Virus record (IMG/VR): IMGVR_UViG_3300020472_000187 | Coordinates: 1 to 22,482 of that record | Source of the DNA: a virus | Length of the DNA stretch: 22,482 nt | Direction: 5' to 3' (one strand) | Part shown: positions 1 through 22,214 of the stretch, piece by piece | How the letters are laid out: the number at the start of each line of letters is the position of its first letter | How positions within the stretch are numbered: position 1 is the stretch's first letter | Notes under the pieces: model-generated | Database searches by the model: none | Told to the model about the DNA's origin: nothing | Seen by the model: only the letters and a program-made list of their open reading frames with translations | Made by a program: the position numbers and the translations under genes

Positions 1-1487
1 ACGTGGCCGTCAACTTTTCGTTGGTACTTCGCCCCTAGCCTTGCGTAGGTCTCCCCAACAAGGCTCTTTGCACTGTCGATTTGCTTGCCTAGGTCAGCCG
101 CCGTGTATTGAGCTGCGCCCTCTCCCGCTTCGATCAAAGCAGCCTGGTCTACAGACATTTTAGAGAATTCTTGAGAGACCTTCTCTGCGGCCTTTGCTTG
201 GTTTGCCCTTAACGTGCTGTCACCATGACGAGTAAGGACCCCGCCTGCCCCCCTCACGACGCCCCTAGCACCTTCAAACAAGTACTTAGAACGAGTGACT
301 ACGTCGAGTGCAACGTCTGGGCTTATCGTAAAGACGAGGCTTGGAAGAAAGGAGCCTTGGTAGGGGTCCGCGTCAGGGTCGCCGCGCCAAACTTTCTTTG
401 CCTCTTCCGTAGAGCGAGCAAAAGCTTCCCCGACCCCTTCCTCAATAAAAGGATTTAATCCAGCAAAGGCTGTCTCAAATGGAACTTCCGCAAACTCTGC
501 AGCGCCACGCACCTTGCGCGATATAGATGCAGCAATCTCGTCTTGGTTTCGGATAATTGTTTCGTCTATGCCTTTAAGGCCAGGAACCATCTCTAGAGCT
601 TTGAAGACAATCGGAGCTACGCCTGGGGCCATGCCAGCCCCAGTAAGCGTTCTGCCCATTAAACCGCGAGTAAGGATGTCCGTTGTAGTTGCGGTCGGCC
701 CGCCGACTACAACCCCTGTTTCGTCAATCTCTTGCCATGTTCGTGGTAGCTGATCAACTCCAGACTGCATCCCGTACTGGTCTAGGCTTGGCAATGCGTA
801 AAGGCCAGCAAGGGCTGCCACGTTTGCCTTAAGCATTGAATCTTCAGCAAAAGAAGCCCCCCTTTCTCGAGCGGCAAGCCCCTCAGAGATATTCCAAAGC
901 AATTCTTTCCTAGGGTCTTTCGGGTGAACCTTGTTTACCCACTTGAGCCGCTCATCCATTGTTTTGCCGGCTAAGCCCAGCATGTCTGCGTTTGCGCTCA
1001 TTGAGCCAAACAGTGGCCCAGTTACCGGAGAAACAAGAGTCCCCGCCGTAGAGAAGAACTTGTCTCCTTTGACCAGCACACCAGGGGCACCTAGTTGCGG
1101 AGGCTCGCCCGTGTCTAGGAGAGACGTGATGTCTTCCTGAGGAACTCCAGGGGAAGCCCTGTCCTCAAGGTACAAGCTTTTAGCAGTAGCCCTTACCTCT
1201 GAAGGGAACATCCCTGTGGCTTCAGCCTCTTTCCCAGCCCTAGCTACTCTTGACCGAAGGAGGGCGGCGTCTTCTTCGCGCCTTAAGATGCCCTCTTCTT
1301 CGCGGGCCTGCTCGTCGTCTACAAAGTAGTTGCCAAAGGCCTCTTCAGCAGACATCTCCCTAGGGGCTTCGTCTGCGAAGTAGCCCCCAAAGGCCTCTTC
1401 AGCAGACATCTCTTTGGGGGGCTCCTCCGCAGAGTAGTCCCCAAAGGCCTCTTCGATAGACATCTCCCTAGGGGATTCGTCAGACAT
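1..1487 (-). CDS. Large putative internal virion (ejection) protein, N-terminal part only
   Basis: The frame is open from an ATG at 1487 to the window edge, giving at least 495 residues with the C-terminus missing. The start is supported by a GAGGG Shine-Dalgarno about 9 nt upstream. Residues 1-53 are three tandem 18-residue copies of an acidic unit built around EMSxEEAFGxY. A charged helical stretch rich in Glu and Arg follows. The middle is Ala/Gly-rich with mildly hydrophobic stretches around residues 200-220 and 240-280, and the last part seen is helical again. It is the last of four genes after the tail genes, the slot held by the largest ejection protein in T7 (gp16) and P22 (gp16). That role is inferred from position, size and composition. 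No lytic transglycosylase motif is visible in the part present. Confidence 0.75.
   Translation of the reverse strand, partial: MSDESPREMSIEEAFGDYSAEEPPKEMSAEEAFGGYFADEAPREMSAEEAFGNYFVDDEQAREEEGILRREEDAALLRSRVARAGKEAEATGMFPSEVRATAKSLYLEDRASPGVPQEDITSLLDTGEPPQLGAPGVLVKGDKFFSTAGTLVSPVTGPLFGSMSANADMLGLAGKTMDERLKWVNKVHPKDPRKELLWNISEGLAARERGASFAEDSMLKANVAALAGLYALPSLDQYGMQSGVDQLPRTWQEIDETGVVVGGPTATTTDILTRGLMGRTLTGAGMAPGVAPIVFKALEMVPGLKGIDETIIRNQDEIAASISRKVRGAAEFAEVPFETAFAGLNPFIEEGVGEAFARSTEEAKKVWRGDPDADPYQGSFLPSLVFTISPDVALDVVTRSKYLFEGARGVVRGAGGVLTRHGDSTLRANQAKAAEKVSQEFSKMSVDQAALIEAGEGAAQYTAADLGKQIDSAKSLVGETYARLGAKYQRKVDGH
1333..1487 (-). repeat. Three tandem 54-bp in-frame repeats
   Basis: The sequence CCAAAGGCCTCTTC recurs at 1333, 1387 and 1441, exactly 54 bp apart. 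The copies encode three 18-residue units with the shared core EMSxEEAFGxY and acidic ends. They form the extreme N-terminus of the protein read leftwards from 1487. Flanking bases differ between copies, so the array is older or more diverged than the 57-bp array in the neighbouring gene. Confidence 0.9.
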
Positions 1488-1517: not shown

Positions 1518-4166
1518 TTAAGGGAAAATAGCAGGGACTGTGGCGCTGGGACTGTCGTTGTTGCGCCAGTAGTACTTGCTTCCGACCTTGATTCGCTGAA
1601 ACCCTGGGCCAGGGCTCTCTCTTTGCGAAGGCTTTTTGTCGGCGTCAGCCATTGCTGCATCCAACTCGTCTTGCTTTCCGCTCGGCTTTTGTGACCTACT
1701 GAAATTTCGGTTCTGTTTAGTTCGCTCCCGGTCCCGCAAGCCCCCCATAGTGCTTTCGCCGGCAGCCCCCTGGCGCCCACGCCTTTCTGCCCGCTGAGAC
1801 AAAAACATAGATCTAGCCAAGTCAAACTGAGAACTCGCGGGCAGGCTTACTACGAACGTTTGTGCAGACTGAGGATTGTTGAACATGCCAACCTCAGCCA
1901 TTTGAACTGAAAGCGCATTTATCTGGCCATCGTTAAGCGGCTCTGCCTGCTCTTTAACGGCTCCCGACACGTTCCTAGCTTGGATCCCAAAGCCGATGCT
2001 CTTCTGCTTTTCGTACTCTTCTCCACCTTCACTGAAGAGGACAAGTTTGTCGCTGATTTTTCGTGCTTCATTAAGGTCAAATCCAAATGCCCTTGAGACT
2101 TCTTCCGGGCCAAACCTTTCGATTGCGTCCACAACCTCAGAAAAGTCCCTAGCTTTGGCGTTCTTACTCTTTAAGTACCGGTCTTTAAAAAGGGACAGTT
2201 CCTCCGAAAGCTTTTCAGGGGCACGAATCTCTGCGTAAGCTCTTGCGCCGTCCTCGCGCAATTTTTGGTCAAGCCTAATACGAGCAAACGCAGATGCCTG
2301 ACGGGTAAGAGCAAGCCGTCGAGCCTTCTCCTCTCCAAAAACAGACTCTGCAAACTTCCGCACGCCTTCGTTCGGAGACGACAATGCCTCGGCTAGTTCA
2401 AGTTGTTGAGCAGGCTTCAACTTCCTCAGCGATGGCGAAACTTTAATTAGCTGAAGCGCAGAGTCTCGGAAGTCTGACCGAACTCTTTCCTCGTACTCCG
2501 TCTGAGTCTTGATTGCTTCCTTGTACCGCTCTCCACCAATCTTGCGAGCCTCTTCACTAAGGCTATCCACAAACTTCATTTGGTCTCGGATGCGCTCAGC
2601 GGTTGGCTTGCCAAGTCTAGTGTTCTTAGCTCGGCCAAGAAGAGTGCTCATGACATCGGAACTCTCAAGGGCGACAGCCTCATCCATTGTTTCAACGTCT
2701 AGACCAAACTGGGCGTATGGCCCTAGGTCCGCTCTTTTGCTTTCAACCGCCTGGATGGCTGACTCCACATCAGTGTTGAGCTGCCTTAGGGTTTGGTCTT
2801 CTTTGCTGAGTAGAGGGTTAAGGCCTTCTTTTGGGACTTCCGGGGAAAGAACAGCCATCACTGGGTCTTGCTGTTCTTTTGGCGTCTCTTGCTTGCGCTT
2901 GCGCCTGCTCTTTTTGGCAGAAGCCTTGGGCGTGCTGTCGTCCTGAAAGTCTGGGACAAACATTTGGTTTAAAAGATCGTATTGAGGTTTAGGGGCAACG
3001 GTTTCATCTGCCCTTCCCATCCTGTTCTGAAGATCGTATTGCTGGTCAGTAGCGGCATTTTCATCCGCCCTTCCCATTCTGTTTTGAAGATCATACCGCT
3101 GGTCAGCGGAAAGACTTTCATCCGCAGCAAGCATCTGATTCTGAAGATCGTATTGCTGTCTACGGGCAGCACTTTCATCCGCAGCAAGCATCTGATTCTG
3201 AAGATCGTATTGCTGTCTACGGGCAGCACTTTCATCCGCAGCAAGCATCTGATTCTGAAGATCGTATTGCTGCGCGGAACCCGAGACTGAAGCCTCTGGC
3301 CTGCCTAGTGTGTTTTGCAAGTCGTATTCTTGGCTAACAACATCGGGCCGGACAGTTGGTGCAGGAGGAGCAGCCATTGAGTTTAGTAGGTCGTACCCAG
3401 ACTGCTGCGGCTGAGTGCTTGCAGCGGCAGGTTCGCTTTGAACTCCGTAGTTAAGCGCTTGACTCCTGCGCTGTCGGGCCTGCCTTAACCCCTCAGCGCC
3501 CGCTGGCCCTAATAGTCTTTCAAGCTGCCTGTCCTCCTCTGTTGACTCTCTCTCTTGAAACAGCCCGCGAGAGCCTGCGTCTAAATCTGGGGCCACATCA
3601 AAGGCTTCGTTTAGGTCTGGTGACTGGTTTGCCAGAGCGCCGAGGTACCCCATGCGGGCCCTGCTTCCCGGCTCAACAGAAAGACCTAGGTTTTCAAGCT
3701 CTTGCTGAGCCTGTCGCTGGCTAGTAAAGCGGTTCCTTGCTGCCAGCTCTTCTTCTCGACGCCTTGCCGCCTCAAGCTCAGCAGACCGAGCGTCAACTTG
3801 TTTGTTCTGTTGGACCCGCCCACGGTAAACATCCTGAGCACCTGGAGTGAACCCCTTTGGAGAAAGGCTCCCGACAACGCGAGAGTATCCAGTAGCTGGG
3901 TCAACCTCTACTCGAGACGCACCCATCGTGCCGGCTGAACCCCTCTTTCCTCCACGGGACTGTGAGGCTTGCTGTCCAGACTGGCTTCTTAGGAACTTGT
4001 CGAGCTCTTCTTTCTCTCGCTTGTCCTGAGCCTCAAAGTACCTAGCTTCTTGCAGGGCTTGCCTGCGAGCAAGTTGGTTTGCCCCGATGATCGAGTCTAC
4101 AAACCCTAAAGCACCGCTAGCAATGCTACCTACGTCTTGCTGACCGTATCCGCCTCTTTTTGCCAC
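1518..4166 (-). CDS. Repeat-containing putative internal virion protein (882 aa)
   Basis: The start is GTG with an AGGGG Shine-Dalgarno 6 nt upstream, 12 nt after the previous stop. Residues 1-60 contain a Gly/Ala stretch (about 12-30) and a charged helix. Residues 110-240 are rich in Arg, Glu and Gln and look coiled-coil. Residues 258-407 form eight degenerate repeats starting YDLxN, about 19 residues each. A Lys/Arg patch follows (about 412-425), then a long charged helical region to about 780 and a polar tail. I recognise no enzyme motif. Position between a small Gly/Ala-rich protein and a very large protein, together with size, suggests the counterpart of T7 gp15 (747 aa), a long helical ejection protein. 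This rests on context, not a domain match. Confidence 0.75.
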   Translation of the reverse strand: MAKRGGYGQQDVGSIASGALGFVDSIIGANQLARRQALQEARYFEAQDKREKEELDKFLRSQSGQQASQSRGGKRGSAGTMGASRVEVDPATGYSRVVGSLSPKGFTPGAQDVYRGRVQQNKQVDARSAELEAARRREEELAARNRFTSQRQAQQELENLGLSVEPGSRARMGYLGALANQSPDLNEAFDVAPDLDAGSRGLFQERESTEEDRQLERLLGPAGAEGLRQARQRRSQALNYGVQSEPAAASTQPQQSGYDLLNSMAAPPAPTVRPDVVSQEYDLQNTLGRPEASVSGSAQQYDLQNQMLAADESAARRQQYDLQNQMLAADESAARRQQYDLQNQMLAADESLSADQRYDLQNRMGRADENAATDQQYDLQNRMGRADETVAPKPQYDLLNQMFVPDFQDDSTPKASAKKSRRKRKQETPKEQQDPVMAVLSPEVPKEGLNPLLSKEDQTLRQLNTDVESAIQAVESKRADLGPYAQFGLDVETMDEAVALESSDVMSTLLGRAKNTRLGKPTAERIRDQMKFVDSLSEEARKIGGERYKEAIKTQTEYEERVRSDFRDSALQLIKVSPSLRKLKPAQQLELAEALSSPNEGVRKFAESVFGEEKARRLALTRQASAFARIRLDQKLREDGARAYAEIRAPEKLSEELSLFKDRYLKSKNAKARDFSEVVDAIERFGPEEVSRAFGFDLNEARKISDKLVLFSEGGEEYEKQKSIGFGIQARNVSGAVKEQAEPLNDGQINALSVQMAEVGMFNNPQSAQTFVVSLPASSQFDLARSMFLSQRAERRGRQGAAGESTMGGLRDRERTKQNRNFSRSQKPSGKQDELDAAMADADKKPSQRESPGPGFQRIKVGSKYYWRNNDSPSATVPAIFP
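2946..3395 (-). repeat. Degenerate tandem array of eight YDLxN units (57-bp period)
   Basis: The array encodes eight units starting YDLLN or YDLQN within the 882-aa protein. The central part (3114-3272) repeats with a 57-bp period without a mismatch that I can see. GATCGTATTGCTG starts at 3146, 3203 and 3260, and ACTTTCATCC at 3114, 3171 and 3228. Outer units are diverged: two carry NRMGRADE instead of NQMLAADE, and the end units are shorter or altered. Identical central copies beside diverged outer copies suggest recent duplication or homogenisation by slippage or recombination. Confidence 0.95.
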
Positions 4167-4178
4167 AACAGACCCCTA

Positions 4179-4802
4179 TCAATAACCAAGGTTATATGGG
4201 TTTTGGCCGTACAGGCCCGTACCACCAAGAAGTCCCTGGTTTCCCGCTCTTGACTGGTCAGTTGCAGCCTGTCCGTACAAGCCGGAAAACGCCGGGAGAA
4301 GTGTCTTGCCTAGGGCAATCTTTCCAAACTCCTTTGTCCCGGTGTCGATGCTCCCCGTAAACGGCTGGGCAATCGTACCAGCTATACCAGCCGCCGCAGA
4401 AATTGCCTCTGCGCTTCGCTTCTTCTGTCCAGCCTGGTCTCCAATCGCGCCCTGAGCAAGGGCCTGCTGGTTAGCCTTAATATTTAAATTGCTAGCCCTG
4501 CGTATAGCTCTTAACCTCTCAGGGCTGATCAGCCCAAAGTCACCGCCAAGTGATGGAAGGTACTGGCTCCGAGAAGCTATGGGTTTCTGCGCTCCAGCCA
4601 TTGCAACCCGTTGCATTTGATTGCCACGCCTAGCTGCGTCCTTGATAGATCCGCCCGCTGCATAGTCAATGTACTGCTGTTGCGAAAGACGGTTTGCGGC
4701 CTTCTTGCCCTCGACCCCTGAAGCTATCCCGGCAGCAGCCCCTTGTGCAGCAAGGCCTACGCCAGTAGCTATTAGGCCTCCCACGATTGCAGGTATTGGC
4801 AT
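4179..4802 (-). CDS. Gly/Ala-rich putative internal virion protein (207 aa)
   Basis: The ATG start has AGGAG 6 nt upstream. Residues 1-28 are a hydrophobic Gly/Ala/Val/Ile segment with glycine-zipper spacing, without the basic N-terminus of a signal peptide. A Gln/Arg/Ala-rich helical region follows. A second Ala/Gly-rich segment lies around 128-150, and a Gly/Tyr/Asn-rich tail closes the protein. Small virion proteins that enter the host envelope during ejection, such as T7 gp14 (196 aa), have this size and character. The gene is also the second of four between the fibre-like genes and the very large protein. The ejection role is inferred from these features. I recognise no specific family. 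Confidence 0.7.
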   Translation of the reverse strand: MPIPAIVGGLIATGVGLAAQGAAAGIASGVEGKKAANRLSQQQYIDYAAGGSIKDAARRGNQMQRVAMAGAQKPIASRSQYLPSLGGDFGLISPERLRAIRRASNLNIKANQQALAQGAIGDQAGQKKRSAEAISAAAGIAGTIAQPFTGSIDTGTKEFGKIALGKTLLPAFSGLYGQAATDQSRAGNQGLLGGTGLYGQNPYNLGY

Positions 4803-5346: not shown

Positions 5347-6198
5347 CTAACCGAAGTCTTTGCGGAGGTCCCTATCAATAGGGGCGTCCTTCAACTGAGC
5401 CCCGCGAACAGGTCCGTAGTCAGCAATAATAATTAACTCAGTGTCACTAAAGATTACTGGCGGGTCGTCTCTTCTGCCGCCACCTAAAGCAACGACATCT
5501 TCTCTGAGATTTAGCGTGTGCCTAACGTTATGCCACCCAGCCATCAACAGACCAGGCTCTGGCGTGTTGAGTAGAGGGTTTGCTGAGTCACTGTGCATCC
5601 GAAGGCCAGTTAAGTCTTTGTTGTTTAACCCGTCAAACGGGCGGATAACCCAAGGCATAAGGATGCTTCTAGAGATGTTTGGCCTGTCTTGAATGCTACA
5701 GGCGCTAATCAATGACTGAGCTTGGAGGTACTCGTCTCCCGGCTCTTCTCGCTCACCTTCCCAGTGCCCGCGAACATCTACCCTAAACTTAAGATCTTGA
5801 ACAACTGGGTTTCGGTCTGTGTCGCCGTTGCCCAAGCAGTGGTCCGTTAGCGTTACATCCCTGCTGTTACTTCTTAAGATCTTTGCTGAGAAGTAAACAG
5901 CAACTTTAGCTGGAGCTCTAAGCCGAAAGCGCAAGGCCCCGCCGGGGATGTCCGCAAAGTCTGTGTTTTTTGTAGGCCAACAAACCCAAGGAGAGCCTGT
6001 GGATTTTCTGTGGAAAACCTCTGTTAGCCCGTTCCTGCGAAAAGACGAGCCCCGGATTGATCCGTCCCCAAAGTTTTCCCCATGAACGCCAGACTGGAAA
6101 ACGCCTTCGATTGAGTCTACGGCGTCAGACCACTGGTCTGCTCGCATTTTACCGTCGTTAACAAAGTCACTTGGGTGGGTGATGTTGAGTATGCTCAT
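5347..6198 (-). CDS. Putative fibre or tail-decoration protein (283 aa), third of a trio
   Basis: The ATG overlaps the upstream stop by 4 nt (ATGA). I see no Shine-Dalgarno, so translation is probably coupled. The N-terminus is a short helix followed by ENFGDGSIRG at residues 41-50, the same kind of motif found at the same depth in the two preceding proteins. The remainder looks beta-rich, with alternating polar and hydrophobic strands and a late hydrophobic strand ELIIIADYG near the C-terminus. A short N-terminal helix, a turn motif, then a beta domain is common in small phage fibre and head- or tail-decoration subunits. No receptor-binding or depolymerase signature is visible. The role is inferred from layout and position after the nozzle gene. 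Confidence 0.6.
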   Translation of the reverse strand: MSILNITHPSDFVNDGKMRADQWSDAVDSIEGVFQSGVHGENFGDGSIRGSSFRRNGLTEVFHRKSTGSPWVCWPTKNTDFADIPGGALRFRLRAPAKVAVYFSAKILRSNSRDVTLTDHCLGNGDTDRNPVVQDLKFRVDVRGHWEGEREEPGDEYLQAQSLISACSIQDRPNISRSILMPWVIRPFDGLNNKDLTGLRMHSDSANPLLNTPEPGLLMAGWHNVRHTLNLREDVVALGGGRRDDPPVIFSDTELIIIADYGPVRGAQLKDAPIDRDLRKDFG

Positions 6199-6782
6199 CG
6201 TTTAATCACAAACGCAGTTAGGTTTACATAGCCAACGTTGCTCGGAGAGATCGACTCTCCACTGTGCCTTGATATGTGCATAAGTACGGTGTTAGTGCCA
6301 GAGTCTTTTGGCTGGTATCCCCATACAATCTTAAGGCCTCCGTTTGAATCTACAGCGTAACCTTTAGATAAATTCCAACTTCCAATTTGATTCCCGGTGT
6401 TGTCGTCTCGAGCAGACAGCCTAATCTCGTAGCGGGATCTGTCTGCGTTTCTAGCGCTTGTAAGTGGCGTCGTATCCATAGATACCGTGCCGACAAGATA
6501 GACTCCGCAGTCTTTGTCTACTTGAAACGACAAAGAGCCTACGTTTGAAAATTGAGGGAAACTTCCTCCAAAGTTAGTTTTATTACTGTACCTGCCCTCA
6601 ATTTCCTTAAAGGGCTCTCCCGGCTTTGCGTGGTACTGGTCTAAAGATCCGCGCTCTACGTTGTCCCAGGACAGGTCATTAATTTCGTCCTGAATAGACT
6701 CAATGTTTTTCTTTGTATTAGAGGCGCTTGAGACCTTTCCCTCTAAGTCTCGGTAGTCTTTTTCGTAGGTGTAGATAGCCAT
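6195..6782 (-). CDS. Putative fibre or tail-decoration protein (195 aa), second of a trio
   Basis: The ATG shares one base with the upstream stop (TAATG) and has no clear Shine-Dalgarno, suggesting coupled translation. Residues 1-38 are a charged helical segment containing heptad-like IESIQDEI. The motif DNVERGSLD follows at 40-48, matching NNVDKDTIG and ENFGDGSIRG in the neighbours. From about residue 65 the chain is beta-rich with many Ser, Thr, Asn and Gly, ending in a hydrophobic strand NLTAFVIKR. The closing strand resembles that of the 251-aa neighbour (NIFAFGLYR). I infer that it is an oligomeric beta-sandwich virion protein. No known domain is recognised with confidence. Confidence 0.6.
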   Translation of the reverse strand: MAIYTYEKDYRDLEGKVSSASNTKKNIESIQDEINDLSWDNVERGSLDQYHAKPGEPFKEIEGRYSNKTNFGGSFPQFSNVGSLSFQVDKDCGVYLVGTVSMDTTPLTSARNADRSRYEIRLSARDDNTGNQIGSWNLSKGYAVDSNGGLKIVWGYQPKDSGTNTVLMHISRHSGESISPSNVGYVNLTAFVIKR

Positions 6783-7537
6783 TATCGGTACAGCCCAAAC
6801 GCAAAAATGTTCGCTTCAACGATCTTAATCCGCCAGTCTGTTTCGTTAAGCAAAGACCGAAACATTGCGCTCGGAGAAAACTCAACCGGCCCACCGCGAA
6901 CATCAAAGCAAGCAACCGTCGCAATAGAGCAACCCCACTGATAGGAGTTAAACGAACCGACTGCCTCTGCTGCAGACAAGCCTCCTTGGCTGCATCGCGC
7001 CTTAAGGGACAACGTTCCGCGCTGCTCTTCGTCTCGCCGCTCACCAAGGTTTACTCGCTCAAAGTTAAAAAAGCCCCTAGCTCCTGCTGAGATTAAATCA
7101 GACTCAGTAAACTCAGCGTCTAGGTGGGCAGACCTAGTATCAGTCTTAACCCGGTCGATGTCAGAGATAACTGCTGAAAGCGACACGCCAACAATCCACT
7201 TAGCGTCACCTCGAGACACGGCCTTTAGCCGCAATCCTTTGCGACCTAAGTCGTACCAGTGCCCATCGTGCTTGTTTCTAAGCTCCTTGATTGGGTCGGA
7301 GGAAGCCTTCTTTTTTTCTTCGTACAGAAACGTGTGGTCTGCGCCGACAATGTCGCTAATGCCGTTGTGATCCGTTGAGTTGGGAGCAACGATTAGGCTC
7401 TTCCCAATCGTGTCTTTATCTACGTTGTTCTGGTCGACTTCAGCTAAGTGGGTCCTGATGCGTTGCATCTCCTGCCACAAGGCACTTGGGTCGTCAGCCT
7501 GCTGGTCCTTTGGGTAACTTACCTTGCGAAAGTACAT
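6782..7537 (-). CDS. Putative fibre or tail-decoration protein (251 aa), first of a trio
   Basis: The ATG at 7537 has a GAGGT Shine-Dalgarno and follows the previous stop by 3 nt. Residues 17-36 form a helix (LWQEMQRIRTHL), followed by NNVDKDTIG at 37-45, the motif shared with the next two proteins. A mixed, strand-rich region with four Cys (about residues 184-211) comes next, then a closing strand NIFAFGLYR. Its first 45 residues may be a trimerisation or attachment segment and the rest a beta domain exposed on the virion. This is inference from the shared layout and from position directly after the nozzle gene and a 67-aa protein. Confidence 0.6.
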   Translation of the reverse strand: MYFRKVSYPKDQQADDPSALWQEMQRIRTHLAEVDQNNVDKDTIGKSLIVAPNSTDHNGISDIVGADHTFLYEEKKKASSDPIKELRNKHDGHWYDLGRKGLRLKAVSRGDAKWIVGVSLSAVISDIDRVKTDTRSAHLDAEFTESDLISAGARGFFNFERVNLGERRDEEQRGTLSLKARCSQGGLSAAEAVGSFNSYQWGCSIATVACFDVRGGPVEFSPSAMFRSLLNETDWRIKIVEANIFAFGLYR

Positions 7538-7540
7538 AAG

Positions 7541-7744
7541 CTACCTCAACTTGTTTTCAATGGTTCTGACGACCTGGCTCAGCTTACTAGCATCAGAAAG
7601 ATCTGGCTTTGACGGAAGTCCAAGCGAAGACATAACCCGAGAAGCCTTCTCTGCCAAAGGCAAAGATTTAGGCACACCCAAACCAGCCTTAGTAATTGCG
7701 CGAGAAAGACGGCGCGAAAGCTTGTCCTGGCTTTCAACCGACAT
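7541..7744 (-). CDS. Small helical protein of unknown function (67 aa)
   Basis: The ATG shares one base with the stop of the nozzle-like gene (TAATG) and has AGAGAGG about 8 nt upstream. The product is rich in Ser, Lys, Arg and Leu, looks mostly helical, and has no Cys, membrane segment or recognisable motif. Tight coupling between the nozzle gene and the fibre-like genes suggests a small tail accessory or assembly factor. Nothing in the sequence shows the function. Confidence 0.55.
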   Translation of the reverse strand: MSVESQDKLSRRLSRAITKAGLGVPKSLPLAEKASRVMSSLGLPSKPDLSDASKLSQVVRTIENKLR

Positions 7745-10161
7745 TACCGCTGCCTCTCTGCGCCCTTAGATGTTCGCCAAAGAACAAAGCTGTCGATTGA
7801 AAACGGCTCGTCGTTTGTCCCGTTTTCAAATTCAATCTCAATCTCGCGACAAACTACTGAGTTCGGAAAAACAAGACGTTGCATGAGCTGGGGTCGACCG
7901 TTCCACGTGGAGCTCCCCCACGTTTTTGTCGAATCACCCCAGCCAATCTTGCTCTCAAGGTCCGTGTTTTCTTCCTTGTTTGCCAGCGTGCCAAACTTGT
8001 TTAAGGCAAACGACATCTGGCCCTCAGCAACAGGGTTTCTGTTTTTGTACCACTTGACTGTAACCGAGTGCTCCCCGGTGTAAGGGAAGAATACGTCAAT
8101 CCCGCTGACTTCCATCTCTTCGCCAGAAGACCACCCAGTTTGGGTTTGACCGTAAGGCCCAAACTTAATGCGCCCAGAGCAAGACCCTGCAGACACAGTA
8201 GGAAGCTTCCCTTGGTCAGCAGTCCCAGGGCGAAACTTGTAATCAAAAGAGTCGCCAAGCCCCCACAAAATTAAGTCTGAATTCTGAATTGAATCAACCG
8301 CGCTCTTTGCCTTCTTAGTCTTCCCTTTAGTTGTCGGGATCCTAGGTGAGTCACGGACAGACACTTCCTTGTGCGAGCGTTCGTCGTGGCGAATGCCAAG
8401 CACCGACTCGCCTTTGTAATGAGCAGCGGCAGTAACCTTTTGTCCTTTGATTACCGTTACGGCGTCTAACTGGTAGTGGTAGCAAAGGACGGTGTCGTTT
8501 TCGTTTCCGGGTCCACTTGGCAAAGCAATAAACAACCGGCGCTCTTTTTCATCAAGCCAAGAAACCGCGTTCCTAAGGCCCCTAGTTGAAACGTTTTTCC
8601 ACCATTTGTTTAGGTTTGCAGACAGTGGCTTAATCGATCCACCGTTGTATTGGTACACGCCATCTCGGCCAACAAACACAATCCGCTCGTAAGCTAAAAT
8701 TGAAGCCCTAGGGGCAACGCACCCAACAGACTCGTTAACCGGAGTAAGCACAGGAGTCCCATCAGAGGAGCCTGTGACCTGGTAGATAGAGTCTTCCTTA
8801 AAGATGATTAGCGAATCTTCCATCGCCACCATCCCCGTGATGTCTGAGTTGTCTCTACTGTTTACGTCAAGAAACTGGTTTGGGTCTGAGACTTGCTCTG
8901 GAAGATCTTGATCACTGTAGAAAACAAAAGACGGGCTTGAGTCTGTAACGTAATAACCGCGCCCCTTGAAGAAGGCGATGTACTTACTTGTCGGAGGCGG
9001 GGTCAGCCTTTCAGCTAAAGGAGATCCTAAGGCTGCAGAGTCAACAGCATCTTCATGGTCGTAAACCACTCGCTGGTTAACGCAAATTTGTCGCCAAAAG
9101 TAATACTCCCCGTCCTTCGCTCGTTTGTAGATGTTTCTCCAAACAATGTCTGACTGCGAGGGTCGGTCAAACCCTGTGATTTTAATTAGCGCCCTGTGCG
9201 GGTTTCTAGAAAGGGGAGTCCCCCCTGAGCCGTCTAAGGGGGGCTCAGGCTCTTCAATCCAGCAATTTTCTCCACCCCCGGTCCCGATAACATCTTTGCG
9301 AGTGTCGTGAAAGCTAGCGTTCTTGTAGATCTCTCCGACCTTAACGGTATTGCCTGGCTCGCTAGGCGATCCCTCTGCCCCGCTCTCGCTAACAAAAGTA
9401 GCTCGGTACTGCATTGTTTGGACAGAGCTCAAGTCATTGCCCCGATCACCCTCGCCAATCCCAACAAACTCATCATTGATAGAAAAGTCTGGGTCTAGTG
9501 CAAGTTGCCCGTCTGGGTCAGGAGAGACCTTTGCTGCGCTAGGTGGTGACGGAATTTCATGAACGCCAATTCTTGATGCGTAGTCTCCGTTCCACTTTAA
9601 ATTTGCATCTACCCCGTTTGAGATAAACAAGTAACCGCCCCAAGTTGAGAAGTAGTCTCCCTCAAAGGGGTCCGTCCCTTCCGTTCGACGCGCAGCAATA
9701 AACTGGTTACCTTCAGGACTTGAAGAGTACTGCTCTTCCCACGGGCTTCCTTCTCCAATGTGCGGCAAGCCAGCCTTTTCCAGACTGTTCCCCCTAACTA
9801 CTAGAATCCGACCAGCCTTGTACTTGTCTGCGCTTAAAGGTCCGATAGTGTTTGCTAGGCTTGTGTAGTGCGGCTCAGCCTTAGAGCTATCTCCTGAGAT
9901 AGAAACAACCAGCTCGGTCGGCCCCCCTGGAACGGTGTACGAGGTAATTGCATTAACCCTCGTATTGAGCAGATGCGGGGTTAACCACTCCCAGTCAACT
10001 AATCCCCGGATGCCCTTAACCTTTTCTACTCGACCAACAACTTGGAAATAGCAGCCATCAACCTCTCGAGCCTCTCCGTTAGCCACGTAGACGCGGTCGG
10101 AAAGGCCTGAGGTAAGAATAGGGATGGCTCGGATGCCACGGCCCTGTGCGATTCTAGCCAT
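7744..10161 (-). CDS. Tail nozzle-like protein (805 aa; tail tubular B / stabilisation type)
   Basis: The start is ATG, 9 nt after the adaptor stop, with AGGGG upstream. The N-terminus is of the kind found in phage stabilisation/nozzle proteins: a polar lead, then an early GLVDWEWLTP stretch. Residues 170-200 carry a beta-propeller-like YLFISNGVDANLKW motif. Residues 248-380 resemble a fibronectin-III-type module (YRATFVSESGAEGSPSEPG, then RNIYKRAKDGEYYFW). Later repeats such as ITGMVAMEDSLIIFKEDSIY and RIVFVGRDGVYQYNGG (about 441-507) are propeller-blade-like. Length is close to T7 gp12 (794 aa), and the slot right after the adaptor matches T7 gp11-gp12 and P22 gp4-gp10. It probably forms the tube below the portal-adaptor ring. 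The class is fairly secure; the exact family is not. Confidence 0.8.
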   Translation of the reverse strand: MARIAQGRGIRAIPILTSGLSDRVYVANGEAREVDGCYFQVVGRVEKVKGIRGLVDWEWLTPHLLNTRVNAITSYTVPGGPTELVVSISGDSSKAEPHYTSLANTIGPLSADKYKAGRILVVRGNSLEKAGLPHIGEGSPWEEQYSSSPEGNQFIAARRTEGTDPFEGDYFSTWGGYLFISNGVDANLKWNGDYASRIGVHEIPSPPSAAKVSPDPDGQLALDPDFSINDEFVGIGEGDRGNDLSSVQTMQYRATFVSESGAEGSPSEPGNTVKVGEIYKNASFHDTRKDVIGTGGGENCWIEEPEPPLDGSGGTPLSRNPHRALIKITGFDRPSQSDIVWRNIYKRAKDGEYYFWRQICVNQRVVYDHEDAVDSAALGSPLAERLTPPPTSKYIAFFKGRGYYVTDSSPSFVFYSDQDLPEQVSDPNQFLDVNSRDNSDITGMVAMEDSLIIFKEDSIYQVTGSSDGTPVLTPVNESVGCVAPRASILAYERIVFVGRDGVYQYNGGSIKPLSANLNKWWKNVSTRGLRNAVSWLDEKERRLFIALPSGPGNENDTVLCYHYQLDAVTVIKGQKVTAAAHYKGESVLGIRHDERSHKEVSVRDSPRIPTTKGKTKKAKSAVDSIQNSDLILWGLGDSFDYKFRPGTADQGKLPTVSAGSCSGRIKFGPYGQTQTGWSSGEEMEVSGIDVFFPYTGEHSVTVKWYKNRNPVAEGQMSFALNKFGTLANKEENTDLESKIGWGDSTKTWGSSTWNGRPQLMQRLVFPNSVVCREIEIEFENGTNDEPFSIDSFVLWRTSKGAERQR

Positions 10162-10170
10162 CGCTTGCCC

Positions 10171-11499
10171 CTAGGTGTCTACTGTGCGAGGCCAACTGCC
10201 ATCGCTAAATTGCTTGTCGTAAGCCCCGGGCTCTCCGTAGCCAATGCTAATGACTGTCCCTGGATCGGACTCTTCGTCGCGCTCCATTCGCTCAATCATC
10301 TCCATAGCTACGCTTCTCTTAAAGGACGATGCGGAGTAATTTTCCCCCTCGCTTAGAGCATAGCTTTCGGCTAGGTCGAGAATGACTTGGTGGAACTGGA
10401 CAGGGATGTGCGGGACATCCGTGTCTAGAACCAATTCCTTAGGTGCGACAAAGTAAGTGATGTCAATCACATACTCGCCATCCGGGGGAGGCCAGGTCCT
10501 GATGTGGTCTGAGCCGTTAAGCTCAACCGCCATTGGTGATACCGAGCCAATGTTTGTGCCCATCGTTGCACCGGTAATGTCTAAGTCAAAGTGCTTAAAC
10601 CCAATCGTGCTGTCTGTGTACAGGTCCTGCAAGGTGCTCGTAATGTAGTCGCTTGTTGGGGCGTTTCTGTGATGGAAAAACTCTGACCCACCAACCTTGG
10701 TCCGGTAAATAGAAACGCCGAAGTCAGACTGTCGAACGTAAGCCAAATCAACCCCGTTATTTGGGGCGCTTATCGTTACAGAAACCTCAGGAGAAAAAGG
10801 CCCAAGCTCCTGTGTCTTAGTATTGAAATAGCAGTACTTGTACTTGTACGTGCCTGGCACCATGCTGCCGCTACCATTTGTAATAGCGGTAGCTGTAGGT
10901 GCAGTACCGGGAACTGGAATCTGTGTGTGTCGCTCTATTGAGTAGTACTGCGGGTAAGATTCGTAATCCTTAACCGTCATCTTTTTCATGTGCTGTGGGA
11001 GAAGACTTTCTTTCTTCATGTGGCTAGTGAAGCCATTGCCCGTGCAAATAATAGACTCAACGCCCGCTGTGTTCGCAGGAAGCGGGTACTCGTCCCAGTA
11101 GATCTTCCAAGCGTCACGGTTTGTTGCGGTAGTGGTGGAGCCCCCGTAGTTGGCCTCGATGTACGCATTGGTCGTTGCGTCGTGGCTAGCGATTCGATGA
11201 ACCGTGCCATCTGGACAAGACAATCGAGCTCCAGACCTAGTGGCCTTACCTGCGATTGTCGTCATGTTTGAGATAACGCGACTTCCAGCCGTAAAGGTCG
11301 CCCCTGGCGAAGCTACCGTTCCAGCAGCCGTTTCGGGGGCGTAAGTGCTGAACTGGTGGGTTCTCCGCAACCAGCTCCACGTCTGACGCCGACCACAGAT
11401 GGTCATGTATGCGTCGTTGACGAAGTCTCCTAGGCGAGACTCATTTCCATCGAATCCGCGCCTACGTCCTAGGCGCTGCTTAAGTGTAGCAAAGTTCAC
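10171..11499 (-). CDS. Head-to-tail adaptor protein (442 aa) with an inserted module
   Basis: The start is GTG with a GGAGG Shine-Dalgarno 5 nt upstream. Residues 1-46 read as the start of a podovirus adaptor: a helix, RRRGFDGNESRLGDFVNDAY, then a Trp-rich WSWLRR. Residues 365-412 are a helical C-terminus (QFHQVILDLAESYAL and a charged helix), as expected for a protein that docks on the portal. Residues about 55-345 are a long Thr/Gly-rich, beta-type insertion, including a fibronectin-III-like segment at 216-300. P22 gp4 (166 aa) and T7 gp11 (196 aa) are less than half this length, so the insertion is a notable elaboration. It lies between decoration genes and the nozzle gene, as expected. 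Adaptor assignment is fairly confident. Confidence 0.75.
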   Translation of the reverse strand: MNFATLKQRLGRRRGFDGNESRLGDFVNDAYMTICGRRQTWSWLRRTHQFSTYAPETAAGTVASPGATFTAGSRVISNMTTIAGKATRSGARLSCPDGTVHRIASHDATTNAYIEANYGGSTTTATNRDAWKIYWDEYPLPANTAGVESIICTGNGFTSHMKKESLLPQHMKKMTVKDYESYPQYYSIERHTQIPVPGTAPTATAITNGSGSMVPGTYKYKYCYFNTKTQELGPFSPEVSVTISAPNNGVDLAYVRQSDFGVSIYRTKVGGSEFFHHRNAPTSDYITSTLQDLYTDSTIGFKHFDLDITGATMGTNIGSVSPMAVELNGSDHIRTWPPPDGEYVIDITYFVAPKELVLDTDVPHIPVQFHQVILDLAESYALSEGENYSASSFKRSVAMEMIERMERDEESDPGTVISIGYGEPGAYDKQFSDGSWPRTVDT

Positions 11500-12867: not shown

Positions 12868-13950
12868 CTAGGCGCTGTACGCGCCGCCAGCAAAGTTGAA
12901 GCAACCGTGCTCGCGAAGGTTATTGATCGTAAGGATACTGTGGAACTTGGTCTTGGAAATCCAAGCCCACTGCTCCTGCGCCAAGCGCCAGTCATCCATG
13001 AAGAAGTGAGCGTTGGGGTTAATCCAAAGCTTCATGTTGCCTAGGTTGGTCTGACCCTGGCTCTTGCCCTTAACGGGATCGAGCATTCCAGGCTCAAAGT
13101 TGTACCCAACCGAGCCACTTGGAGTGCCACCGGTCAGGTTCAACATGAAGCCTTCACCACTGTTCTCAGTGATGTTGTAGTCAGGGATAACCAGAGCACC
13201 CTTGAATCGGAGGCTAGTGAAGCCAGCGCTTCCCATGTCCTCGTCAACCAGAGCTCGCTCAGGACCACACCACTCCTCGTAACCGTCGTAGACAGCTGGG
13301 TCGACCAGCATGACGTCGGGACGACGACCAAACTTAGCGCACTCTCGGTACAACTTAGTCCAGGTCGGGATACCCTGAGTCATGAAGCCACCAGCGATCT
13401 GCTGGAACTGGTTGTGGTGGTAGGTTGCGTTCTTCGCGACGTTAGCGACAGTCCCACTCTGCGCTGCAGGCGTGGCAAAGTCGATCATTCCGCGAAGACC
13501 ATCGATGTCACCATTCACACTCTTAGCTGTGTGAAGCTGCTCTTCGATGTAGTTACGCATCGTGATAGCGCACTGAGTCAACTCGGCGTCAAGAAGACGT
13601 CCGATCTGCTTCTTAGCGTTCTGGTTCAGGTCAACCTTGTCGCAAGCGACAACGGACTGGCAGGAAATCTGGCCCCACTCGTCCCAAATGAACGGCTTGG
13701 CAAACTCGCTGTCAGCGGTGTTGAGAACCTGCGTACCCTGGTAGGTCTGCACGTTCGGGTTTTCGGCGTGTGCGAAGGGGATTCGCGCAGATGGTGCAGC
13801 CTCGAGATGGATCGCACCCTTCTTGTACATAAGGTACAGAAGCGGCGATTGCTCGAGGATAAGCCATACAAGCTTTTCCCACGACGCACCCCACGTCAGC
13901 GTAAACGCCTTCGTGTAGTCGGTAAGTGTAGTTGAAAACGGAGCGCCCAT
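12868..13950 (-). CDS. Major capsid protein (360 aa)
   Basis: The ATG start has GAGGA 5 nt upstream. The gene lies directly after a scaffold-like gene and before the cement-like gene, the standard coat position. The sequence has the look of an HK97-fold coat: an N-terminal helical segment (about 1-45), a strand-rich E-loop-like section, a long helix around 115-145 (LDAELTQCAITMRNYIEEQL), and the typical P-domain phrase RRPDVMLVDPAVYDGYEEW near residue 210. The C-terminal part is strand-rich (MKLWINPNAHFFMDDWRLAQ). Length fits the 300-430 residue range of the fold. No fused protease or Ig-like domain is present. The function is confident; the exact coat family would need a profile search. Confidence 0.88.
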   Translation of the reverse strand: MGAPFSTTLTDYTKAFTLTWGASWEKLVWLILEQSPLLYLMYKKGAIHLEAAPSARIPFAHAENPNVQTYQGTQVLNTADSEFAKPFIWDEWGQISCQSVVACDKVDLNQNAKKQIGRLLDAELTQCAITMRNYIEEQLHTAKSVNGDIDGLRGMIDFATPAAQSGTVANVAKNATYHHNQFQQIAGGFMTQGIPTWTKLYRECAKFGRRPDVMLVDPAVYDGYEEWCGPERALVDEDMGSAGFTSLRFKGALVIPDYNITENSGEGFMLNLTGGTPSGSVGYNFEPGMLDPVKGKSQGQTNLGNMKLWINPNAHFFMDDWRLAQEQWAWISKTKFHSILTINNLREHGCFNFAGGAYSA

Positions 13951-13971: not shown

Positions 13972-14937
13972 CTAGCCCAACCGAGACCCTAAGTCTGAGT
14001 TCTGCCCCAAAACCGCATCTAGAATCTCATCCATCGACATTGTCGCGGTTGAGCCTACAGGCGATGAGGAAGTACCAGACTGAGAGCTTGCCGGCGGGGC
14101 TGCTTCGGCCCTTCTTTTGGCATTGTTGATAAGACGGCCCTCATTGACCGCCCTAATGGCTCGTTCCCCTGCCAAAGACAAAGCCGCGCGATACGAAGGC
14201 TCTGTCCCTGACGAGAGGAGACTGGTGATAGTTGGATCGTTTGAGTCAAGAATCTTTCGCATCTCACCACGAACCCGGTCGTCGCGAAACTCCCGGTATT
14301 GACTAGTCTTCATCTCTTCAAAGATGTTGTTAATTCGACTAGCCTCGCGATGCGGTGCAAAGGTTTCTGCAACTGAGTTAACCTGACCCTTAAGTGCCTC
14401 GATCTCCTGCATTAAAGCGAGTTCGCGCTCCGAAGAGCCCCCAGTCGCTTTAAGTCGAGCGTCCATTACTTCAAGTAGCGCCCCAAACCCGTCTCCGTTT
14501 TTTGCTTTTTCGGTGAATCGCTGACGCAAATCATCAACGCTTACTTCAGTCTCCTGAGGTGCGTTGTCGGCCCCATTTGGCCTTTGGCTTGCCTGCTGTG
14601 CCTGTAAGGCGAGGAAAGCCTGTTGGAGTTGGTTTTGTTGTTGCTGTAGTGCTGACCGGTCAGACTCAAGCTCACGCTTAAAATCAGCGAGATCTTGGGT
14701 CTTTTTAGTAAGACCGGATTGCATTTCTCGATAAATGGCGAGGTTCTCAGGGGCGAGGTCAAGTGGGTTACCTGACCAAAACGCTCCAGAACCGTCTTCA
14801 CCATCGCTCGAGCCATCGGTCTCTGTAGCTTCTACTTCACCTTCAGAGTCGATCCCATCGGCGGCCACCGATAGGTTGTCGAGTTCTCCAGGCTCCGAAG
14901 AAATTTCAGAGTTGTCGTTGCCAAGCTCTGGATTCAC
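13972..14937 (-). CDS. Scaffolding protein (321 aa)
   Basis: The start is GTG with GGAG 5 nt upstream. An earlier ATG is out of frame and stops after four codons. The N-terminal 50 residues are very acidic (Glu, Asp, Ser, Gly). Residues about 68-120 form a predicted coiled coil with a Gln-rich stretch, and 140-290 are charged helices. The C-terminus is Pro/Ser-rich, then MSMDEILDAVLG. An acidic, helical, low-complexity protein immediately before the coat gene is the usual phage scaffold, which binds the inside of the procapsid and leaves on maturation. There is no Ser-protease motif, so it is not an obvious fused protease-scaffold. The role is inferred from composition and position, both strong. 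Confidence 0.82.
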   Translation of the reverse strand: MNPELGNDNSEISSEPGELDNLSVAADGIDSEGEVEATETDGSSDGEDGSGAFWSGNPLDLAPENLAIYREMQSGLTKKTQDLADFKRELESDRSALQQQQNQLQQAFLALQAQQASQRPNGADNAPQETEVSVDDLRQRFTEKAKNGDGFGALLEVMDARLKATGGSSERELALMQEIEALKGQVNSVAETFAPHREASRINNIFEEMKTSQYREFRDDRVRGEMRKILDSNDPTITSLLSSGTEPSYRAALSLAGERAIRAVNEGRLINNAKRRAEAAPPASSQSGTSSSPVGSTATMSMDEILDAVLGQNSDLGSRLG

Positions 14938-15547: not shown

Positions 15548-17482
15548 CTAAAAGGCAGGGACTCCAGGTGACGGGCTAAACGCCCCCTGACTCCCTGCCG
15601 GCATTGTAAGCGGCTCTCCTGTAGCCGGGTTAACTGCAGCTCCCGCTGCAATAGATTCTTCTGGGGCCATCTCCATGCCGCCACCCTGAGGCGCTGCAGC
15701 CATTGGTCCTGACGCCTGCGAAGCAGCCTGACCAAACAACTGTGCAAAGCTGTCTCGTAACTCAGGGCTGTCTTGCTCCCAAAGCGAAAGTGCCTTGTTG
15801 TAAAAAACAGCAACCGCTTCTGGGGGAACTTGAGCAACCGTCAAAGCTTGCGCTGCTGATGCAAGAGCGTTCATAAAGCCGATGTAAGCCTGCCGCTCAG
15901 CCTCTGGCCCTACTGGCTTCATGCTGCCTGCGTGGACGCCAACATCGAACTCGCCACGGATGTCATTTCTGTTGTAGGTCAGCGGCTCATCTTCGCCTGT
16001 AATTCTGACCCAACGGTTAGCGTCGTAAAATTGCTGCATTACCTGGAGAGTCTTTCGCGCAATCGTTTGAACAAACTTTTCAAAGATGCGGAGCTTAGAC
16101 TCAGAACGCCCTGCGTGCATTGCAGCCCGGTAAGATATTTCCGTTGCAGACTTAGCTGAGCTGCGGCCTCCGCGCATTGCTTCGTCGCCAGCCCCAACCT
16201 CGTTAAGCACCCCGCGAAGAATGTTGTACGTTCCCAAAAACTCTTGAGGAAACGCGGGCATTACTAGGTTGCGAACATCGGCAGATACGTTCTTACTTTT
16301 TGCAGCAACCATTTGAGGCATCTTCGATGCAAGAGCTGCCTTGGCTTGTTTGTCAAAGATGCCGTCCTTGTAGACCGTCTTGAGCGCCATGCTTGCTTCA
16401 AGGCCCTCTACTGCTCCGTCGAGAAGTCGCTGAAGCTTTTCTGCGACTGGAAGCATCTTGTGAACAAGCGAAATGCCATAGAACTGGTCGTTAACCTTTT
16501 CAAACCTGAGGTCAACAAACGGGTAGCCCTCCATGTCTAGGGGCGATAACGCATGCTTTAGAATTGTCGGGCCGGTGTGGTCTTTGTTTGGCTGCTGGCA
16601 GGTCCAGAGGACGCGCATCTCTTTGACGCGACGACGCTTTCTTTTTCCGTCAACGCGAACGATTCTGCTTGCCCAAGAGTGGTACCAAATTTCGTACACC
16701 TCAACGTGCTCGGCTTCTTCTTTGCGCCAAACGTTTCCGATTGAGTCTTCGTTGAGCTCGTCTAGGGACTTAACTTTGTCCGCAGTCAGATGTTTTGTTT
16801 TAGCAAAACGTGGGTCGTTCTTAATTTCATCAATGTGAATTAAGTGCCTAATAGCAACCCAGGGCATCTTGTGGATTTCGTCATACCCAGGAGGAAACAC
16901 AAAGTTAAACGGAGAAACCCGCACAAGCGTAGCGTGCGCTGCTGGCCTGTCTGCTGGAATCCCTAGGGCCTCGAGTCGGTCCCTAATGGTCTTCATGTCT
17001 TCGTCGGCGTCTGCGTACTCATCCTCATCGAGGTCTCTGTCGTAGTCTTCAACAGGGACAAAGACGCCGGCTGGTTGATAGGTAATGCGACCTACGCCTG
17101 CAGAAAGAATAAGCGCGTCATCGAGCACCTTTCGGCACTCGTTGTTAAAGCCACCCTCTTCCCACTCGTAAGCAAGCGCAGACTGGGCAAGCTTTGCCTT
17201 CATTTTGCTGTCGTCCATTTCGCTAGACTTTCGCGGCCTAGCGTAAAGAGACGGGTCGTTGTGGAAGATGTGTGGGCGTAGCGCATCTATCGATGAAGAG
17301 ATCAGCGCAAGGCCGCGCTCCCCAGAGTTCTTTTCAATGCCCATTCTGTAGGCGTCGGTTAGCTTGCGCCAATCGTCAAAGTGGGCTTTTCGTATAATTG
17401 ATTCTGCAGTGATGACCTTGTCTAAGATCTTCCCTGCATCCTCTGGTTTGATTGAAACGTTCGTTGGGTCAAACTTCGCCAT
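15548..17482 (-). CDS. Portal protein (644 aa)
   Basis: I place the start at the ATG at 17482, which shares one base with the terminase stop (TAATG) and has AGGTGG 5 nt upstream. An in-frame GTG at 17491 is less likely. The gene follows the large terminase directly and precedes scaffold and coat genes. The N-terminal half has portal-like helices (WRKLTDAYRMGIEKNSGERGLALISSSIDALRPHIF). The central part has the long helix and loop section seen in podovirus portals (KVNDQFYGISLVHKMLPVAEKLQRLLDGAVEGLEASMALK). The C-terminus is Ala/Gln/Gly/Met-rich and low complexity. Length lies between T7 gp8 (536) and P22 gp1 (725). It forms the dodecameric DNA channel at one capsid vertex. Function is confident from context and sequence type. 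Confidence 0.87.
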   Translation of the reverse strand: MAKFDPTNVSIKPEDAGKILDKVITAESIIRKAHFDDWRKLTDAYRMGIEKNSGERGLALISSSIDALRPHIFHNDPSLYARPRKSSEMDDSKMKAKLAQSALAYEWEEGGFNNECRKVLDDALILSAGVGRITYQPAGVFVPVEDYDRDLDEDEYADADEDMKTIRDRLEALGIPADRPAAHATLVRVSPFNFVFPPGYDEIHKMPWVAIRHLIHIDEIKNDPRFAKTKHLTADKVKSLDELNEDSIGNVWRKEEAEHVEVYEIWYHSWASRIVRVDGKRKRRRVKEMRVLWTCQQPNKDHTGPTILKHALSPLDMEGYPFVDLRFEKVNDQFYGISLVHKMLPVAEKLQRLLDGAVEGLEASMALKTVYKDGIFDKQAKAALASKMPQMVAAKSKNVSADVRNLVMPAFPQEFLGTYNILRGVLNEVGAGDEAMRGGRSSAKSATEISYRAAMHAGRSESKLRIFEKFVQTIARKTLQVMQQFYDANRWVRITGEDEPLTYNRNDIRGEFDVGVHAGSMKPVGPEAERQAYIGFMNALASAAQALTVAQVPPEAVAVFYNKALSLWEQDSPELRDSFAQLFGQAASQASGPMAAAPQGGGMEMAPEESIAAGAAVNPATGEPLTMPAGSQGAFSPSPGVPAF

Positions 17483-21387: not shown

Positions 21388-21463
21388 TGGCTGCGGCGGC
21401 TGGGATCGAACCAACGACCAAGGGAGTAACAGTCCCCCGCTCTACCTGCTGAGCTACACCGCA
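21388..21463 (-). tRNA. tRNA-Asn (anticodon GUU), CCA encoded
   Basis: All arms fold. The acceptor TGCGGTG pairs with CGCCGCA with one G-U, the D stem is GCTC/GAGC, and the anticodon stem GGGGA/TCCCT holds loop CTGTTAC with anticodon GTT. The T stem GTTGG/CCAGC carries loop TTCGATC. Discriminator G73, as in bacterial tRNA-Asn, is followed by an encoded CCA, for 76 nt in all. It reads Asn codons AAC and AAU. The 5' end is one base after the stop codon of the basic-protein gene, and the 3' end is 20 nt before the next start. It therefore lies inside the gene string and must be cut out of the long transcript. Confidence 0.95.
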
Positions 21464-21464
21464 A

Positions 21465-21809
21465 TTACTTCTTCTTCGCCCTAGTCTTTCGCTTTACGAC
21501 TCGACGCTTAGTTGTTGTCTTTTTGGCCGTAGTCTTTTTTGCTACCGACTTCTTTTTAGTCGCAGTTTTAATGCGAGACGACTTAACTGCAGCAGCGGCC
21601 TTAGGCGTGTTCTTTACGAACTGTTTTCCCTTAGCTGTCCCCGCTCGTTTTTTGCGGGTAGTAGCTGCGTACTCGCTAGAAGAAAGTTTTTTAATTGCCT
21701 TCTTCGGCATGTAGCGCTCGCCAGTCTCAGAGCTCTTCTTTCCAGACTTCGTTTTCCACTTTTCCTTAGTCCAGTTTTTGAGACTTCGCTGCGACTTCTT
21801 GAGCGCCAT
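21465..21809 (-). CDS. Lysine-rich histone H1-like basic protein (114 aa)
   Basis: The ATG shares one base with the upstream stop (TAATG). The first 60 residues are a folded-looking unit (KKSQRSLKNWTKEKW, GERYMPKKAIKKLSSSEYAAT, KRAGTAKGKQFV), a type I recall from marine phages and algal viruses. The last 45 residues are an almost pure Lys/Thr/Ala/Arg tail, like histone H1 tails. This suggests binding to DNA or RNA, perhaps as a packaged or nucleoid-associated protein. The similarity is from memory and cannot be confirmed here; the tail charge is seen directly. The stop lies two bases before the tRNA. Confidence 0.75.
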   Translation of the reverse strand: MALKKSQRSLKNWTKEKWKTKSGKKSSETGERYMPKKAIKKLSSSEYAATTRKKRAGTAKGKQFVKNTPKAAAAVKSSRIKTATKKKSVAKKTTAKKTTTKRRVVKRKTRAKKK

Positions 21810-21994
21810 TATTTCTTTTTCCAGCTTTTCCGAGCGGTAGCCTGGGCAGTCTTTCCTAGGTCACCGTAGTGGTACAAGCGCTTGCTCGAGGACGTATGGT
21901 TGGCTCCGCTGTGGAGCTGGCCATTCTTCATCTTGTGCATCTTGCCTTTGTGCTCTTTGCCGCTCTTTAGGTAATGCTTAACTCCCATTGCCAT
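21809..21994 (-). CDS. Small basic protein (61 aa)
   Basis: I place the start at the ATG at 21994, with GGAGGG 8 nt upstream and one base shared with the preceding stop (TAATG). A longer frame without a ribosome site is unlikely. The product is rich in Lys, His, Ser and Gly (GVKHYLKSGKEHKGKMHKM, LHSGANHTSSSKRLYHYGDL) and ends SWKKK. I recall similar short proteins from marine phages, where their role is unknown. Charge and neighbours suggest nucleic-acid binding. Confidence 0.68.
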   Translation of the reverse strand: MAMGVKHYLKSGKEHKGKMHKMKNGQLHSGANHTSSSKRLYHYGDLGKTAQATARKSWKKK

Positions 21995-22206: not shown

Positions 22207-22214
22207 GGGTCCTC

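Follow-up and report, generated by a model that had tools for sequence, protein, structure and literature searches.

The 882-aa protein encoded at positions 1518 to 4166 (minus strand, GTG start) of a viral contig carries eight copies of the short motif YDLxN; the residues Y, D, L and N are under selection at the protein level, and the central part of the array was lengthened recently. The contig is the IMG/VR record of one uncultured virus, a metagenomic contig of 22,482 bp that was analysed as a whole and is called the window below, and the virus is probably a marine tailed phage. The eight-copy array is confirmed as real. On the minus strand, it spans positions 3404 to 2934 (residues 255-411) and runs from unit 1 (QSGYDLLNSMAAPPAPTVRPDVV, 3336-3404) through unit 2 (SQEYDLQNTLGRPEASVSGS, 3276-3335), unit 3 (AQQYDLQNQMLAADESAAR, 3219-3275), unit 4 (RQQYDLQNQMLAADESAAR, 3162-3218), unit 5 (RQQYDLQNQMLAADESLSA, 3105-3161), unit 6 (DQRYDLQNRMGRADENAAT, 3048-3104) and unit 7 (DQQYDLQNRMGRADETVAP, 2991-3047) to unit 8 (KPQYDLLNQMFVPDFQDDS, 2934-2990). 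The eight YDLxN motifs start at residues 258, 281, 301, 320, 339, 358, 377 and 396, so that the first two of the seven steps measure 23 and 20 residues and the other five 19 residues each. In the array the motif takes the extended form YDLxN[x][M/L], and the array peptide can be written as (YDLQNQMLAADES)n. As two YDLxN motifs were obtained in only 1 of 20,000 shuffles of the 882-aa protein, the array is not a product of chance; the best internal self-match of the protein scored 325, compared to a maximum of 53 in shuffled sequences.

Repeat detection with TRF, which the first-pass annotation of this DNA had proposed, found arrays with a period of 57 bp as it had described, at 3002-3125 (80% match) and at 3114-3272 (100% match, 2.8 copies). 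Together with the motif positions, these arrays show that the eight units had been placed correctly. The segment 3114-3272 on the minus strand is a perfect tandem repeat of 159 bp, as had been claimed for the central units, and the claim can now be refined: if the 57-nt register is set to begin two codons ahead of Y, units 3 and 4 do not differ at any of the 57 nt, unit 5 shares their first 45 bp (the first 15 codons from QQY), and the spacing of the motifs is not uniformly 19 residues. The longest exact self-repeat in the array is 102 bp. Between units 6 and 7, and between either of them and units 3-5, identity amounts to 61-75%, and the outer units show 40-56% identity to the remaining units. 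The central copies display no difference over the 102 bp self-overlap and the spacers of the outer units are near saturation, with a median JC distance of 1.65. The earlier view of a recently copied core flanked by diverged outer units is supported by TRF, by the unit identities, by the codon counts and by the divergence simulation described below. Likely, an array of about six units existed before its central unit was duplicated twice in frame, by 57 bp each time.

The residues Y, D, L and N are unchanged in the eight units and are encoded by 2, 2, 3 and 2 different codons, respectively. Pairwise comparison of the six non-redundant units revealed 27 synonymous and 0 non-synonymous differences in the motif columns, compared to 19 synonymous and 140 non-synonymous differences in the spacer columns; the pairs are not independent of one another, and invariance was the criterion by which the motif columns had been chosen, a bias that a neutral simulation corrects in part. 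Neutral divergence was simulated on the inferred unit tree, and runs were scored if at least 4 columns kept a single amino acid while differing in codon. Such runs were never obtained at the observed divergence (0 of 20,000), and they amounted to 0.02% of runs at a distance of 0.7 and to 0.16% at 0.5. Because the residues are invariant, the codons vary and the neutral simulation fails to reproduce this pattern, YDL-N is held at the protein level, which speaks against three alternatives: a DNA element, drift that is purely neutral, and a spacer that is kept for its length alone. The motif positions are thus selected above the spacer, as in docking arrays of short linear motifs. Combined, these results indicate that what has been preserved in the array is the set of peptide motifs, and neither its DNA sequence nor its length as such.

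The 882-aa protein is encoded in a minus-strand cassette that contains, in order, the terminase (17482-19455), the portal (15548-17491, matching Pfam SU10/P22 portal), a gene (13972-14937) that is scaffold-like by its position between portal and capsid, the capsid (12868-13950, phrog_9953), a tail gene (10171-11499, SU10_adaptor), a conserved 805-aa tail or virion protein (7744-10161, phrog_3287) that was used to find relatives, genes without assigned role (5347-7744), a 170-aa gene, a 207-aa gene just upstream of the 882-aa frame (4179-4802) that is gp14-like by position, the 882-aa frame, gp15-like by position and size, and a giant gene, gp16-like by position, that extends beyond the end of the window and is represented by its 5' portion (1-1487, 495 aa). 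The order terminase-portal-scaffold-capsid-tail-small-small-882 aa-giant mirrors genes 11-12-14-15-16 of T7, which follow 8-9-10 in that phage. The succession tail A, tail B, small gene, gp14, gp15 and gp16 was found with the same sizes, and with the extra genes at 5347-7744. Profile similarity to gp15 of T7 or of P-SSP7 was not detected (hhalign probability 0.05 and 0.09 per cent, respectively), nor was profile similarity to P22 gp20; the protein matched no Pfam or PHROG family, and tblastn gave no match in 50,697 phage records. The designation as an ejection-type protein, made in the first-pass annotation, therefore agrees with the T7-like gene order but not with any profile or sequence homology to known ejection proteins. 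Gene order and size suggest that the protein is of the ejection type, and likewise that it would be located in the virion and ejected.

Two further features of this neighborhood were recorded. The 207-aa protein and its counterparts in three related loci (L053, L055 and L061) share a conserved C-terminal tail, [DN]LYNL[ST]Y[GA], which reads YNLGY in the window. A likeness between YDLxN and the tail of these counterparts (LYDLYNLTYG and similar sequences) was considered and rejected, the tail in the window scoring no better than shuffled sequences (p=0.47; p=0.03 for L053). A tRNA-Asn (GTT) gene is present on the minus strand at 21388-21463, close to the end of the window, where small frames rich in lysine are located (21465-22481).

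The structure prediction that had also been proposed was carried out with AF2 on nine sequences and yielded a poor, nearly all-helical model (mean pLDDT 55, pTM 0.25). The array is predicted to be in part unstructured, at about residues 241-301 and 369-458 where pLDDT is below or nearly below 50, and in part a low-confidence helix, over residues 298-348 through the identical units and again over 354-382. Several copies of a short motif would thus lie in a flexible region, as in docking arrays, the flexibility being taken from this low-confidence model only. On an ideal helix, a step of 19 residues corresponds to a rotation of about 100 degrees, and the first two steps are longer (23 and 20 residues), so that the motifs do not line up along one face of a helix; this phase and the uneven spacing favour independent docking peptides over a continuous coiled coil. 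Foldseek matches of the model, including the comparison with the gp15 fold, were set aside as they are not interpretable at a pTM of 0.25.

To what extent the array occurs elsewhere was analyzed in related viruses and in larger collections. The terminase is shared with 33 IMG/VR loci (64-93% identity) and the 805-aa tail protein with 19 (54-72% identity), and synteny of the cassette extends to L037/L047-L049, L052, L053, L055, L057, L058, L061 and L062. Terminases with about 90% identity come from short contigs (L002-L004, L030, L032 and L033). The eight distinct syntenic counterparts of the 882-aa protein (601-916 aa, about 24-30% identical to it) contain no YDL and no internal repeats apart from glycine or low-complexity runs, and the region of the array corresponds to a hypervariable linker in their alignment. 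These nearest relatives are without the array, and no close relative in IMG/VR covers the gene. The peptide QYDLQNQM has no relative in IMG/VR, and when IMG/VR and 84,980 GTDB genomes were searched for two YDLxN motifs at 57-bp spacing, the 9 stretches from viruses and 40 from genomes that turned up contained no comparable array. When three YDLxN motifs at a spacing of 13-23 residues were required, only T4-like fibre-type repeats and unrelated chance or low-complexity repeats were found; tblastn with the array alone gave a single chance-level match in phage records (E=8). Motif arrays in ejection proteins were not described in the literature searched. The YDLxN array is private to this lineage and is known from this one phage only. 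Relatives without a repeat signal had been named in advance as an outcome that would speak against the array; such relatives exist, at about 24-30% identity in this protein, and they indicate a lineage-private array and not its absence here. Its absence from all eight syntenic relatives suggests that its function may be either private to the lineage or dispensable. Among the counterparts, two gp15-like proteins (L057:10012-12333 and L058:10785-12935) are identical over their first 47 residues and about 30% identical overall thereafter, whereas the preceding gene is highly similar in both, a pattern that points to intragenic recombination.

The explanation that we favour, and to which we give slightly less than an even chance, is that the array is a multivalent docking string of short linear motifs in a flexible linker, recently lengthened. 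A flexible linker with some helical content, located centrally in an internal virion protein of the ejection type, would display eight YDLxN[x][M/L] peptides that together hold a repeated or oligomeric partner, and the two extra central copies, probably produced by in-frame 57-bp duplication within an array of about six, would have provided a higher avidity. Each unit is expected to bind, and the partner would be a virion or assembly protein. A scaffold, a portal or a fellow ejection protein would be the likeliest class, because P22 ejection proteins are recruited into the procapsid by the scaffold, via N-terminal parts in gp7 and gp20 (PMC8402733), and because residues 157-228 of T7 gp16, a "molecular tape", cement gp15 after ejection (PMC8954989). 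The first-pass annotation had offered a flexible spacer, a docking array or a set of host-factor motifs; the docking array fits the selection pattern, and a mere flexible spacer is not supported, since Y, D, L and N are conserved. The motif resembles no known docking motif among those that could be tested. A beta-clamp motif of the QxxL type was rejected, as the residue preceding Y varies among units (G, E, Q, R) and the hydrophobic residue that such motifs require is absent. An array of selected, countable motifs provides a concrete peptide bait for work on two podovirus processes: the loading into the head of large ejection proteins with little sequence conservation, and their re-assembly in the cell envelope.

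The same observations were weighed against other explanations. The array could be a structural spacer, either a long helical rod or an extendable linker, in which length and not the motifs would count, for instance so that the ejected conduit can bridge the periplasm. Tape-measure proteins are a precedent for such length rulers, and the all-helical model, with predicted helices over 298-348 and 354-382, would suit a rod; we nevertheless regard a spacer as plausible but unlikely, given that YDL-N is kept while the spacers drift, that length is not constant among counterparts without the array (601-916 aa), and that the helix is of low confidence with the motif phase not kept. A homology-driven expansion, by slippage or unequal recombination without benefit from copy number, of a motif that was once useful and is now largely neutral appears rather unlikely as well. 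The identity of the central copies, the absence of the array in relatives and its position in a hypervariable linker would all be accounted for, but not the fact that four positions of the older units are under purifying selection.

Direct repeats of 57 bp could form an iteron or a recombination site that happens to be in frame, the period being divisible by three; the conserved residues vary in codon, however, the DNA between them diverges and no second copy is present elsewhere in the window, and such an element is thus extremely improbable. An assembly artefact would concern the number of copies and not the existence of the array. The sequence is a metagenomic contig from IMG/VR, and its perfect self-overlap of 102 bp comes near the k-mer limits of short-read assembly, but the largest k-mers of widely used assemblers exceed this length, the outer units are not identical and no break interrupts the reading frame, which makes a miscount very unlikely. 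Finally, the motifs may bind a host factor, an envelope or cytoplasmic protein, after ejection, instead of a phage protein. Ejection proteins of T7 do reach the periplasm and the cytoplasm (PMC8954989), and a private, fast-growing array fits host-specific pressure; as no known host motif was matched and ejection itself is deduced from gene order and size, we consider this improbable.

The gene that follows also starts with tandem motifs. Three 18-aa copies of EMSxEEAFGxY, predicted to be unstructured, occupy the N-terminus of the giant gp16-like protein (1315-1481, minus strand). Counting the window, eight of nine lineages have a short motif, repeated two or three times in tandem, at the start of this protein, and the motif differs in each (L037:16500, L052:17376, L053:17544, L055:18493, L057:12340, L058:12939 and L061:14302 in the relatives). 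In seven of the eight relatives the N-terminal blocks scored above all 40 shuffles, the motifs being SRFGG, DPFAGLG, RLSGLKPAEE, DRFGNPIDE, GYEW..QWxP, SAEDLLAEP and SDEEFDAYE; the counterpart in L062 has no tandem N-terminal motif. The giant proteins of L055 (18493-20892) and L057 (12340-14739) share 96.6% identity across the 700 residues that follow the junction DEPEEGLTDD, and the blocks that precede it, of 26 and 57 residues, consist of unrelated two-copy repeats, indicating a clean module swap. Two KPAFDxxxPFE units are likewise present at the start of a protein from a Bradyrhizobium phage. A match to N-terminal DPF repeats of phage mEp460 was attributed to chance, and a motif vocabulary common to the gp15-like proteins and the N-termini of the giant proteins was dropped (best z 2.7 among 81 comparisons).

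These blocks lead us to a speculative proposal, for the moment an unlikely one: ejection-type proteins of this podovirus group would carry exchangeable, lineage-specific tandem docking motifs (eight YDLxN in the gp15-like protein; EEAFG, SRFGG, DPFAGLG, RLSGLKPAEE, DRFGNPIDE, GYEW..QWxP, SAEDLLAEP or SDEEFDAYE in the giant protein) that set the partner or the assembly route and are swapped and amplified like address labels. If true, this would explain how sequence-unrelated ejection proteins are packaged and are swapped between phages. The broader pattern of N-terminal motif blocks is a more interesting lead than the YDLxN array.

Among known systems, gp15 of T7, the internal core or periplasmic tunnel protein, and gp15 of P-SSP7 share with the 882-aa protein a position after the tail genes, between a gene of about 200 aa and a giant gene, as well as a comparable size (747 and 837 aa, respectively) and a mostly helical structure, which in the 882-aa protein is that of the model. 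T7 gp15 differs in having no tandem repeat and no profile match, and P-SSP7 gp15 carries a two-copy C-terminal module of another kind. This module (L128:26558-29071) is a 35-residue GYxVxxxxEWxxSG unit, the two copies of which lie 60 residues apart. With the P22 ejection proteins gp7, gp20 and gp16, the protein shares a podovirus neighborhood, including the portal that matches Pfam SU10/P22 portal, but these proteins have no repeats and gp20 gave no profile match. Repeats are also absent from epsilon15 gp14-17. The first-pass annotation had known of no such repeats in T7 gp15 or in P22 ejection proteins, and none were found in T7 gp14, gp15 and gp16 or in P22 gp7, gp20 and gp16; tandem repeats of other kinds do occur, however, in P-SSP7 gp15 and in other podovirus virion proteins. 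One of these, of the HMO-2011 gp25 type, is a protein of about 700 aa from the virion region of marine podoviruses that likewise contains a helix-prone repeat array; its motif and its period of 22 aa are different, and, in contrast to the private YDLxN, it is conserved in many phages. In HMO-2011 gp25 (L123:22504-24624) the 22-residue repeats cover residues 306-530 approximately, and the protein is shared by 27 phage records, including phages of Roseobacter, Pelagibacter, Rhizobium, Vibrio and Aeromonas. Tandem units with YDLTN are present in proteins of about 2000 aa (L131-L138) that we take to be T4-like tail fibres, but these units are 21 residues long with an unrelated remainder, and the likeness is limited to five letters. 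The "molecular tape" of T7 gp16 (157-228) is, like the docking string that we favour, an extended segment of an ejection protein that holds another ejection protein, and it provides the model of a docking strand (PMC8954989). It is not a tandem array, it lies in gp16 and not in gp15, and no sequence relation to it is claimed. As neither the T7 nor the P22 precedent is described with tandem motifs, the YDLxN array may be said to work like these docking segments, not to be one of them.
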